A stretch of 32,800 nt of DNA from Selenomonadaceae bacterium (lineage in GTDB: Bacteria > Bacillota > Negativicutes > Selenomonadales > Selenomonadaceae), in contig JAFVBP010000321.1 of assembly GCA_017479925.1 (NCBI GenBank), positions 1-32,800 of the forward strand, read 5' to 3'. Under the pieces are notes generated by a model that saw nothing but the letters and a program-made list of their open reading frames with translations, was not told where the DNA came from and did no database searches. Positions 2,972-5,685 of the stretch are shown here, piece after piece (position 1 is the first letter of the stretch; each line of letters begins with the position of its first letter). Both the position numbers and the translations under genes were made by a program.

Positions 2972-3077
2972 GTTACTTTCTTTTGGCAGCAAAAGAAAGT
3001 AACCAAAGAAAACTGCGCCCGCAGTGAAACCGTCCCGGTTTCAACGCGTGCGGTTGCGGCCGTCATCCGTGACGGCC
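2972..3077 (+). repeat. Composite three-hairpin element, copy A
   Basis: Three successive inverted repeats: a perfect 13 bp stem starting GTTACTTTC (2972-2984 with 2991-3003), a GAAACC/GGTTTC hairpin (3026-3042), and GGCCGTCA/TGACGGCC (3058-3077). The same three hairpins in reverse order and orientation occur at 4963-5059. It lies just downstream of the hydrolase stop codon and may also end transcription there. Confidence 0.85.
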
Positions 3078-3093
3078 GGATTTTCGTCGCGGG

Positions 3094-3729
3094 TCAGTCG
3101 AAGAAGTTCACGCGGCTGAAAAAATATTTCTCGTCGGCAACGGTCGTCGGTTCGCTGTGCCCGCTCAACAAAACCGTGTCGTCGGGCAGGGCGAAAACTT
3201 TTTCGGTTATCGTGTCGTGAAGCTCGGCGGGGTTGCCTCCGTAAAAATCCGTGCGTCCGATTGACGCTCGAAAAATCGTGTCGCCGACGAACGCCGCAGA
3301 ATTTTTCGCGCTGTAATAAATCGCTCCGTCGGTCGTGTGACCCGGCGCGGCAATCAGCGTCAACGAAAAATCGTCGCTCAAGGCAAGTTTCGCGCCGTCG
3401 TCCAAAAAGTTCACGTCGTCAAGCACGATGTCCAAGCCGAATTGGTCGGACAAATTCCAACGCGGGCTTTTGACGTATTGAACGCCGTTTTTGTGCATGA
3501 AGACGGGAACTTTCAACTCGCGACGAATTTTTTCAACCGCACCGATGTGATCGAAGTGTCCGTGCGTCAACAAAATTTTTTCAATCGTCCAGCCGCGTTC
3601 GTCGACGATTTTCAGCAACTTGTCGGCTTGCGCACCGGGGTCAATCAAAAATCCGCGACCGCTTGAGTCGTCGACGAAAAAATACGCGTTGACGGGGAAA
3701 ATCGCGCTGACTTCGGCAAGCAGAATCAT
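3094..3729 (-). CDS. Metallo-beta-lactamase-fold hydrolase, glyoxalase II-like
   Basis: A 211-residue cytoplasmic enzyme of the short YcbL/GloB-like subgroup, probably a thioester hydrolase binding two metals. The signature THGHFDH gives ligands H56, H58, D60 and H61, followed by H131 in APGHT, D150 in VGDTIF and H191 in LSGHSEPTT. All expected ligands are present and the length is typical. A GAGGTG ribosome site precedes the ATG. It is the last gene of a three-gene minus-strand cluster, 9 bp after the FrnE-like gene. The substrate cannot be told from sequence. Confidence 0.9.
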   Translation of the reverse strand: MILLAEVSAIFPVNAYFFVDDSSGRGFLIDPGAQADKLLKIVDERGWTIEKILLTHGHFDHIGAVEKIRRELKVPVFMHKNGVQYVKSPRWNLSDQFGLDIVLDDVNFLDDGAKLALSDDFSLTLIAAPGHTTDGAIYYSAKNSAAFVGDTIFRASIGRTDFYGGNPAELHDTITEKVFALPDDTVLLSGHSEPTTVADEKYFFSRVNFFD

Positions 3730-3738
3730 GTCGGCACC

Positions 3739-4308
3739 TCAGTGACAGCCGTCCGCGTCGCAGACCAAACCGTCAAAAAACTTTTCGTCGAGTTCTTCGG
3801 TAAGAATTTTTCGCAGGGACGCCGTCATAAATTCGGTCGGTTGCGCGCCGCTGATTGCATACTTGCCGTTTATGACGAAGTAAGGCACGCCGTGAATGCC
3901 GTAAGCCGTCGCCTGTTGCTCGTCGTCGCGAACTTCGGCGGCAAATTCGTCGCCCGCCAAAAAAGTTTCGACTTCGACAGCGTCAAGCCCGCACTCGACG
4001 GCGATTTTTTTCAGAACGTCGAAGTCGGCAAGCGCAAGGTTTTTCGTGAAGTAAGCGTCGAAAAGTTTCTCGACAATCTCGTCGTGTCCGCGAACGTGCG
4101 CGAATTTCGTCAAACGCAACGCGTCGAAAGTGTTGGTATTGCGCGTTGTCGCATAATTGAAGTCCAAACCTTCGGCGCGACCCATCTCGGAAATTTCGTC
4201 GATTCGTGCGCGTGCGTCTTCAACTGTCAAGCCGTATTTTTCGGCGAAACGGTCTTGCGTCGACGAAACGACTTCACGCGGAGCCGTCGGGTCAAGCTCA
4301 ATTTTCAT
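3739..4308 (-). CDS. FrnE-like DsbA-family protein lacking the catalytic N-terminal segment
   Basis: From residue 5 on (LDPTAPRE) this 189-residue protein matches the thioredoxin-fold FrnE/2-hydroxychromene-2-carboxylate isomerase-like family: helical insert, then the cis-proline segment GIHGVPYFVING (P142), and a family-like CDADGC near the C terminus. Family members normally start with MKIE-type residues followed by about 40 residues containing CPFC or CPWC before this point. Here MKIE is joined directly to LDPTAP, so the first beta strand and the CxxC are gone. The ATG has a good GGAGGT site, so this is not a wrong start choice. The start overlaps the preceding gene by 11 nt. It is expressed in principle but is unlikely to be a disulfide oxidoreductase. 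Confidence 0.85.
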   Translation of the reverse strand: MKIELDPTAPREVVSSTQDRFAEKYGLTVEDARARIDEISEMGRAEGLDFNYATTRNTNTFDALRLTKFAHVRGHDEIVEKLFDAYFTKNLALADFDVLKKIAVECGLDAVEVETFLAGDEFAAEVRDDEQQATAYGIHGVPYFVINGKYAISGAQPTEFMTASLRKILTEELDEKFFDGLVCDADGCH

Positions 4309-4918
4309 GCGACAAACCTCCGAACAAAATCAATCCGCCGCGACGTTGATAGCCCGTGTCCCACAGCGTCGCCAAGTCAAACCAGCGTCCGACGCCGTAA
4401 GTGACAGCCTTGACGAAAAATTTCCCGTCGCGCTCGTCGTAAGCGTTCAAGATAAACCAGTGCCAATTATAATCTTCCAGCGACGGCTCGCGGTGATTCA
4501 AAATCAAACACGGTATCGGGAAGCCCGCGTCAATTTGTCGGCGGACAATTTCGCGTGTGTCGTCGTAAGATTTTTCGCCCTGCCAAGGTGCCAACGTCAG
4601 CGAAGTTTCTTTATGGTCACGCAAAAATCTGCCGTAGCCGTCAAGATAAATTTCCAGCTTATCGACGCCCGACCAGCGCGGGTACAGGTACGGCTCCATG
4701 ATTCGCCCGAATTCAAGGTACGCCGTTCGCGAAATGTTTTGCACGTCGAACGGGTACAAATGTCGCCCGAAATATTTCGTGAAGTAAATCGAACAGTCGC
4801 AGGCGGTTATTGCCGCGCAGCCGCCGATATACATGCCGAATTCGGTCAAGCGCGGGTACCACTCCTGTTGCCCGCCGTAGCTGTCGCCAACGTAAAAATG
4901 TTCAAGTTCGCGTTTCAA
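4298..4918 (-). CDS. C39-like papain-fold cysteine peptidase-related protein
   Basis: About 206 residues from a TTG start at 4918. An ATG seven codons upstream is less likely because GGAGGC lies inside that extension, six bases before the TTG. Near the N terminus QQEWYP and GGCAAITAC place a likely nucleophilic cysteine. Near residue 160 NWHWFILNAYD places a likely histidine and aspartate, the order of a C39/BtrH-like papain fold. There is no signal peptide or transmembrane segment. The substrate is unknown. It is the first gene of the cluster with the FrnE-like and hydrolase genes. Confidence 0.6.
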   Translation of the reverse strand: MKRELEHFYVGDSYGGQQEWYPRLTEFGMYIGGCAAITACDCSIYFTKYFGRHLYPFDVQNISRTAYLEFGRIMEPYLYPRWSGVDKLEIYLDGYGRFLRDHKETSLTLAPWQGEKSYDDTREIVRRQIDAGFPIPCLILNHREPSLEDYNWHWFILNAYDERDGKFFVKAVTYGVGRWFDLATLWDTGYQRRGGLILFGGLSHEN

Positions 4919-4962
4919 GTCGTCGCCTCCGAAATGCAATGCGAAATGTTAACCGTAACTCC

Positions 4963-5059
4963 GGCCGTCATGGATGACGGCCGCCCGCAGTTGAAACAGG
5001 ATGTTTCACCTGCGGGATGTTTTCTTTGGTTACTTTCTTTTGCGCCAAAAGAAAGTAAC
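4963..5059 (-). repeat. Composite three-hairpin element, copy B
   Basis: GGCCGTCA/TGACGGCC (4963-4982), then CCCGCAG/CTGCGGG enclosing TGAAACA/TGTTTCA (4984-5016), then the perfect 13 bp stem beginning GTTACTTTC (5029-5059). It is copy A in inverted orientation. It fills the gap between ctsR and the C39-like gene. Confidence 0.85.
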
Positions 5060-5070
5060 ACAACCCTCCG

Positions 5071-5547
5071 TCAAGTGATTTTCGCAAGCGTCGCGAATGT
5101 CGAGCGGATTAACTTTGCGCGTTCTTCGGCAGAAATTTTCTTCAGCGACTCGGACTTGTACAAATTCGCCGACATCTGCGCGACAAGTTCGGCTTCGCGC
5201 CGCGTGATGATTCGGTTGCTGAGCAGATAATCGAGCATCGTCTTGATTCGGCTGAACGGCGTGTATTCGTCAATCTCCTCAATCATTTCGCGGTACAAAA
5301 GTTGCTTGCGGTCAACCTCGTCGGCAATGACGGCAATGCGAATGTAGCCGCCCAAGCCGCGTCGCGATTCAACTGCAAAGCCGCGTTCGGTGGTGAAACG
5401 CGTGCTCAAAACGTAGCTCACCTGCGACGGCGCGCAACTGATTTCGTCGGCAACCGCCGTGCGTTTGAGTTCGATCTGCTTGTCGGCTTTGCCTTCGAGT
5501 CGGCTGAGGATATATTCTTCAATCGTGTCAGCTTTGTTGTTCAACAT
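5071..5547 (-). CDS. ctsR: CtsR, heat-shock gene repressor
   Basis: CtsR represses clp and chaperone genes in Firmicutes and is inactivated by heat or by McsB. The N-terminal winged helix includes APSQVSYVLSTRFTTERGF and the family's tetraglycine-like wing, here RRGLGGYIRI. The C-terminal part is helical. Length is about 158 residues, as usual. An ATG at 5547 is preferred over a TTG two codons upstream because GAGGTGA is optimally spaced to it. In most Firmicutes ctsR is followed by mcsA, mcsB and clpC. Here it is followed by a repeat element and unrelated genes. Confidence 0.93.
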   Translation of the reverse strand: MLNNKADTIEEYILSRLEGKADKQIELKRTAVADEISCAPSQVSYVLSTRFTTERGFAVESRRGLGGYIRIAVIADEVDRKQLLYREMIEEIDEYTPFSRIKTMLDYLLSNRIITRREAELVAQMSANLYKSESLKKISAEERAKLIRSTFATLAKIT

Positions 5548-5576
5548 AATCAATCACCTCGTCTTGATATTTTGAC

Positions 5577-5614: not shown

Positions 5615-5640
5615 TAATGCGTAATGCGTAATGCGTAATG
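5615..5640. repeat. Heptamer repeat ATGCGTA (ATTACGC family)
   Basis: More than three tandem units of a 7 bp repeat in the ctsR-gmhB gap. The same heptamer recurs at 20608-20870 and 29524-29555. Confidence 0.85.
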
Positions 5641-5685
5641 ATTTCGTGCAGGAATTTGTTTGAACGTCGACGAATCAAGCCGCAA

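Follow-up and report, generated by a model that had tools for sequence, protein, structure and literature searches.

Interspersed hairpin repeats are already known as a kind of bacterial sequence. With the REP/BIME repeats the elements described here share a size of ~100-170 bp, an intergenic placement, a multi-copy and hairpin-forming nature, and the lack of an encoded mover. The same likeness extends to the enterobacterial RU repeats, as described in the available part of the source (PMC2759123). Unlike these families, the present elements have a third strand that covaries with a stem as its mirror image, a complement to the hairpin loop and a core found across phyla, and their genome holds no RAYT.

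For the core of the elements, within their first hairpin (H1), SAM-II and the telomerase pseudoknot are comparable systems. The SAM-V riboswitch is an H-type pseudoknot, according to the available part of its description (PMC6061858). In contrast to these pseudoknots, the core is a dispersed repeat with no ligand site or reading-frame control, and its triple helix is predicted from covariation only. The outer hairpins resemble those of the CsrB/CsrC/RsmY/RsmZ sRNAs in holding several GGA motifs in (A/U)CANGGANG(U/A) context, but they occur in tens to hundreds of mobile-looking copies whose core, known from sequence alone, is also found without CsrA. We know of no bacterial mobile repeat defined by a conserved RNA triple helix, and a third-strand signature with cross-phylum spread had no match in Rfam 15 or in searches of the openly licensed PMC literature. 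Across 15 loci Rfam gave only two hits, and the window had none; one Caballeronia element pair is matched at its edge (L131 6713-6820) by Bp1_684 (RF02421), over the end of an element and the adjoining flank rather than over the core as a whole.

The window is one entire contig of 32.8 kb from a 2.82 Mb assembly in 357 contigs (G000). Near-identical elements occur in Selenomonadales/Selenomonadaceae MAGs, a likeness from which the kinship of the window was inferred.

Results

Two three-hairpin elements and the genes between them

The first-pass annotation had described two three-hairpin elements in opposite orientation, and both are present where it placed them (E1 and E2, Table 1). In each, the order of parts is H1, a purine linker, H2 and H3, and the H1 stem, given there as 13 bp, has 14 bp. 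Compared with dinucleotide shuffles, E1 folded with z-scores of -5.9 and -6.1 on the two strands and E2 with -8.8 and -7.4, and 0 of 200 shuffles equalled either. The claim that the arms differ between copies and still pair was borne out over 21 copies, in which 99.6% of cells in named pairs were standard and two-sided changes numbered 24, against 6.1 in shuffles. Structure is thus conserved despite sequence change, and a mobile repeat is likely.

Table 1. Elements and neighbouring genes in the window; E1 and E2 were both among the 21 sequences from which covariance model R1, the source of the bit scores, was built.
Feature	Position	Strand	Description
E1, whole (H1, linker, H2, H3)	2972..3077	+	Covariance model R1, 106.8 bits
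E1 H1	2972..3003	+	Stem 2972-2985 with 2990-3003, loop GCAG 2986-2989; from fold and pair counts
E1 linker AAAGAAAA	3005..3012	+	Mirror image of H1 purine strand; from mirror covariation
E1 proposed triplex third strand UUUUCUUU	3005..3012	opposite strand	From mirror covariation
E1 CTGC	3013..3016	+	Complements H1 loop GCAG; candidate pseudoknot partner
E1 H2, inner hairpin TGAAACCG-TCC-CGGTTTCA	3025..3043	+	GGA in loop on opposite strand
E1 H3	3058..3077	+	Opposite strand is GGCCGUCACGGAUGACGGCC, containing U-CACGGAUG-A, a CsrA-type consensus (available part of PMC6692469)
Metallo-beta-lactamase-fold hydrolase	3094..3729	-	PF00753; stop 16 nt from E1 end
DsbA/FrnE-like gene	3739..4308	-	PF01323
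C39-like gene (name from the first-pass annotation)	4298..4939	-	No Pfam match
E2, whole	4963..5059	-	Covariance model R1, 86.9 bits; missing at the orthologous place in G016
E2 H3, CsrA-type reading GGCCGUCAUGGAUGACGGCC	4963..4982	+	
E2 H2, loop motif ACAGGAUGU	4984..5016	+	From fold
E2 proposed triplex third strand TTTTCTTT	5020..5027	+	Mirror of stem
E2 H1	5029..5059	+	Stem 5029-5042 with 5046-5059, loop 5043-5045
ctsR	5071..5553	-	PF05848; separated from the C39-like gene by E2
H1 core, about 55 nt			Proposed triplex-forming strand 5'-P1-UUUCUUUG-GUUAC...-3'

It had also been suggested that the three genes between the elements invert or have moved as a unit, which the gene order in relatives contradicts. 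The nearest relative (G016) has ctsR and the C39-like gene arranged and oriented alike with neither element present, and the hydrolase and DsbA-like genes do not occur at that place; in two other genomes (G010 and G015) the C39-like gene adjoins riboflavin-synthase-side genes, again without the hydrolase or DsbA-like gene. The three genes are therefore not a unit, and inversion or mobility of the segment as a whole was rejected on this basis. Among the matching loci no block inverted in a relative was seen. The hydrolase and DsbA-like genes (window 3094-4308) are also adjacent in G004 and G005, at another place there, and they seem to have come to lie next to the C39-like gene in this species only. 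Beside ctsR (window 5616-5645) are short repeats of GCGTAATGCGTAATGCGTAATG type, with similar strings at other loci of this genome and G016, which look like another intergenic repeat family.

A dispersed family of intergenic copies

The search for further copies that the first-pass annotation had proposed, made with a covariance model from 21 copies, gave a family of at least 150 in the genome, a lower bound. The H1 palindrome alone, with <=3 mismatches, had 65 forward and 65 reverse matches, against 0 for the reversed control. The model matched 157 times in 601 kb of contigs, and the 109 matches reaching >=45 bits were kept; the 48 excluded were mostly antisense readings of the same palindromes, with a few that are probably true degenerate copies. 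As the 41 sources had been picked mostly for holding copies, the copy density in them is not that of the genome. Neighbouring copies were at most 2.2 kb apart in 21 of 68 pairs from these sources, 15 in the same and 6 in opposite orientation, and copies mostly stand singly between ordinary genes, the arrangement that the first-pass annotation had itself named as counting against its reading, so that E1 and E2 do not form a special pair.

Nearly all copies (106/109) are intergenic, as judged with a simple gene caller that assigned 87% as coding, and they lie in 61 tandem, 21 convergent and 12 divergent gaps, with 12 at contig edges. Genes whose 3' ends face an element are on its bottom strand in 56 cases and on its top strand in 53 (39 and 43, respectively, for 5' ends); element orientation relative to genes is random. 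The median distance is 24 nt to gene 3' ends vs 75 nt to 5' ends, and convergent gaps are somewhat over-represented (21/94 copies vs 53/356 gaps). On the H1 side, the stop codon lies exactly 2 nt away in 11 of 53 facing gene ends. In 54 copies conservation extends ~7 nt upstream, where the consensus is GTTGAAY, and ~10 nt downstream, and the sequence outside is random. Across 119 loci no shared neighbouring gene was found, the largest cluster (12 loci) looking like transporters merged by linkage.

Two structural variants were observed. Six copies (L262 5807, L253 8027, L294 6994, L302 11875, L260 9000, L266 4017) form a class of ~160 nt with an extra inner segment of ~55 nt between linker and H2. 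In seven others (L304 83, L264 8072, L263 95, L255 613, L249 12243, L289 2645, L299 8065) a different hairpin (AATTGGATGCAACGTC.ACGTTGCC), joined to the linker, stands in place of H1, which indicates that modules recombine between repeat families.

Screens of this genome (98.8% complete) for RAYT or reverse transcriptase as a mover found no Y1 transposase among three scored candidates (PF01797, detected in 5 of 14 known genomes as a control) and no reverse transcriptase (PF00078, RVT_1; present in 6 of 17 genomes). Terminal inverted repeats of MITE type were not found, H1 and H3 differing in sequence, and no linked gene family was seen near the 119 loci. Mismatches summed over S1, H2 and H3 were of GT type in 21 cases and AC type in 16, with no strand preference. 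With random orientation and even mismatch types, only the GGA motif described below points to an active strand or to RNA.

Gain, loss and spread

In a comparison with 816 kb of G016, 11 copies had both flanks collinear, and at 10 of these sites, that of E2 included, G016 has no element (7 by alignment, 3 by gap lengths of 48, 22 and 79 nt). At one of the seven aligned sites (L292 9406) a short GTTACTTTT/AAAAGTAAC palindrome is seen, which could be a relic. The eleventh site (L291 312) is common to both genomes, with H2 replaced by another H2 type. The seven empty-site alignments are too diverged for a target-site duplication to be read. Within the genus, 26 of 31 genomes had a match, copies ranged from 0 to at least 128 per genome, and one of the five genomes without a match is 100% complete.

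The exact pattern was found in 1 of 299 genomes sampled from the window's phylum, this genome alone. A wide scan recovered at least 119 stretches with the core pattern, from Caballeronia, other Burkholderiales, Thiobacillus, Xanthomonadales and Methylococcales, from Bacteroidota (Mucilaginibacter, Segetibacter, Chitinophaga), Selenomonadales and Desulfuromonadales, and from a few MAGs with other labels, for which misbinning is possible. A generic stem pattern was present in 37 of 40 genomes. Species with many copies include Lysobacter yr284 and a G366-like species, and harmless carriers in culture include Stenotrophobium and Methylobacter. Plasmid and phage records searched with E1 gave no match; in IMG/VR a 20-mer of the core had 43 matches, against 1 for a control 20-mer with another centre.

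A frequent arrangement in Caballeronia, Thiobacillus and others is a non-coding palindromic element of ~400-600 bp with shuffled inner modules, capped by a pair of inverted cores (L131 6168-6720, L133 1255-1773, L149 2133-2650, L166 7031-7507, L218, L228, L242). On IMG/VR contigs the 20-mer core also lies inside long perfect purine mirror repeats, with 10-16 extra mirrored bases per side and no pyrimidine strand nearby (L064 899, L058 4119 (-), L059 1896 (-), L061 9357, L052 7401).

Covariation of a proposed third strand with the H1 stem

In the core, the H1 purine strand (here R1) leads into the bottom pairs, then usually a single C, and then the linker (R2). Among 96 parsed copies, which are related and so not independent trials, 89 have an R2 that mirrors R1 exactly; the parse left out 13 of 109 copies (7 with H1 replaced, 1 with degenerate H1, 5 with point changes in the core). 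Thirty copies have an asymmetric R1 (4A-G-3A, 3A-G-4A or 3A-G-5A), and 28 of these carry an exact mirror and two a mirror plus one A. Strand exchange of a direct repeat was rejected as an alternative to a mirrored third strand, a direct copy being found in 0 of the 30.

In other genomes the mirror was checked with stem-only patterns that did not impose the linker R2, over 59 strings among the matches listed, mostly one per distinct sequence and mostly in the purine-linker orientation, with a few opposite-orientation strings added. Phage-like contigs with the CTTTTCTTT stem had the predicted AAAAGAA linker in 5 of 7 cases and another linker in 2. Among the strings listed, R1 AAGAAAA pairs with linker AAAAGAA in two genomes, and R1 AGAGAAA occurs with linker AAAGAGA in five distinct strings from one genome, a class in which the stem has gone from T-A to C-G and the linker correspondingly from A to G; AGAGAAA with AAAGAAA occurs in one string of this genome. 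Furthermore, the base past the linker tracks the top pair of the stem, being A with T-A in 33 of 39 cases and G with C-G in 8 of 8. By sequence comparison, then, the third strand covaries with the stem in the parallel-Hoogsteen sense.

Where one strand shows a mirror, the other carries a pyrimidine tract parallel to the hairpin purine strand, which is how U.A-U and C+.G-C triples are arranged. The H1 loop finds its complement in the bases that directly follow R2, with a mean longest complement of 4.0 over 63 distinct loops, compared with 2.86 (sd 0.11) for re-dealt partners, of which 0/2000 were as high. Within G000, standard pairs make up 97.5% of the four loop pairs, and two of the four show two-sided changes; in E2 the pseudoknot partner is weak, at about 2 bp. 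We propose that the core, on the strand opposite to the purine linker, would form an H-type pseudoknot with a U.A-U/C+.G-C triple helix, comprising a variable P1 of about 4-6 bp, a third strand of 7-8 nt, one bridging G and a P2 of 12-14 bp. The deep and narrow groove of A-form RNA would accommodate a one-nucleotide bridge over 4-5 bp more readily than B-DNA would. Because the third strand covaries with the stem across phyla, the fold is predictable and testable in the tube.

CsrA-type outer hairpins

The published CsrA consensus is GGA in (A/U)CANGGANG(U/A) context, in the available part of the source (PMC6692469). On the proposed triplex-forming strand, H3 reads (A/U)CANGGANG(U/A), the full CANGGANG being present in 105 of 109 copies, with GGA and the last G invariant (109/109) and the two N positions variable. 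H2 loops were ACAGGATGT in 61 copies and GCAGGATGC in 16, and in the classes counted 27 of 109 (17+7+3) were without GGA. Over 132 elements of the scanned genomes, CANGGANG hairpins lay 26 times on the predicted strand and 0 times on the other, and any GGA hairpin 57 vs 17 times.

A CsrA gene is present in this genome (PF02599, E 2.7e-24). Tests of 38 genomes detected CsrA in 18, and 20 of the 37 carrier genomes tested lacked it. Among 36 genomes with usable loci, 10 of 16 CsrA+ but 1 of 20 CsrA- genomes had a CANGGANG hairpin with the core (Fisher p 0.00027), a comparison that draws on 1 to 11 loci per genome from lineages that are not independent and is confounded by phylogeny, as CsrA+ genomes are mostly Gammaproteobacteria and Negativicutes. 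The one exception (G358) is a 1.8 Mb MAG, from which CsrA may simply be missing. Given that in hosts with CsrA the outer hairpins tend to be of the CsrA type, binding of the element RNA by CsrA is probable.

Discussion

We consider it somewhat probable that E1 and E2 belong to a mobile repeat family that is dispersed, non-coding and non-autonomous and has a triple-helix core. This reading draws on the large copy family, the absence of the element at most alignable orthologous sites in the nearest relative, edges with random DNA outside, and the covariation of third strand and loop in the core; the family, its gain and loss and the covariation are established at the level of sequence comparison. 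The triple-helix core would be recognised or protected, most likely as RNA, and may be the module that the life cycle of the element needs for recognition or protection, because the core alone is common to several phyla. The outer hairpins would be lineage additions that recruit a host RNA-binding protein, and the inserting enzyme would be supplied in trans, by something other than a visible Y1 transposase or PF00078 reverse transcriptase in this genome.

An alternative is a single-stranded DNA element that is REP-like or derived from IS200/IS605, in which a Y1 (HUH) transposase acting in trans would recognise the hairpins at both ends and the triplex would form in single-stranded DNA. The intergenic placement of nearly all copies would agree with it, and the frequent stop codon at exactly 2 nt together with the GTTGAAY upstream resembles a fixed one-sided target. 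We regard this alternative as possible though unlikely, since PF01797 was not found in a nearly complete genome while the control was positive, the short bridge would suit an RNA groove more than B-DNA, and the specificity for GGA hairpins suggests an RNA-binding protein. The bordering of an invertible or mobile three-gene segment by E1 and E2 is hardly credible: the inverted arrangement and the absence of the hydrolase/DsbA pair in G016 speak for it, but the C39-like gene is in place there without either element, and close neighbouring copies mostly share their orientation.

Two further readings place the benefit with the host. Elsewhere, RNA 3' ends are protected by triple helices; this, together with the short distance to gene 3' ends and the excess of convergent gaps, would suit an RNA signal acting in cis, as a terminator, processing site or 3'-end stabiliser, that host selection keeps at operon ends. 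It is nevertheless improbable, as gain and loss are fast and the elements have neither a U-run after their stems nor the gene orientation of intrinsic terminators; as regards the earlier suggestion of an RNA processing or termination signal, random orientation speaks against a terminator or a fixed 3' processing site. Very improbable is a host-useful sponge network, in which copies are kept because their RNA titrates CsrA like the CsrB/RsmZ RNAs: the H3 consensus, its co-occurrence with CsrA and the CsrA gene of this genome agree with it, but many core-bearing genomes, more than half of the carriers tested, have no CsrA, and copy numbers fluctuate among sister species.

Returning to the mobile repeat with a triple-helix core, we advance a broader and rather doubtful idea, namely that such elements are cross-phylum selfish RNAs whose transcript would end in a triple-helix pseudoknot for persistence or for copying back into DNA, with outer hairpins that fit the host's abundant RNA-binding protein, CsrA where it is present. 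Short bacterial repeats are usually classed by hairpins alone, whereas here a third strand covaries with the stem across phyla, which gives a handle on the spread of ownerless repeats without a recognisable transposase. The link to CsrA, if true, would tie repeat load to global RNA regulation.
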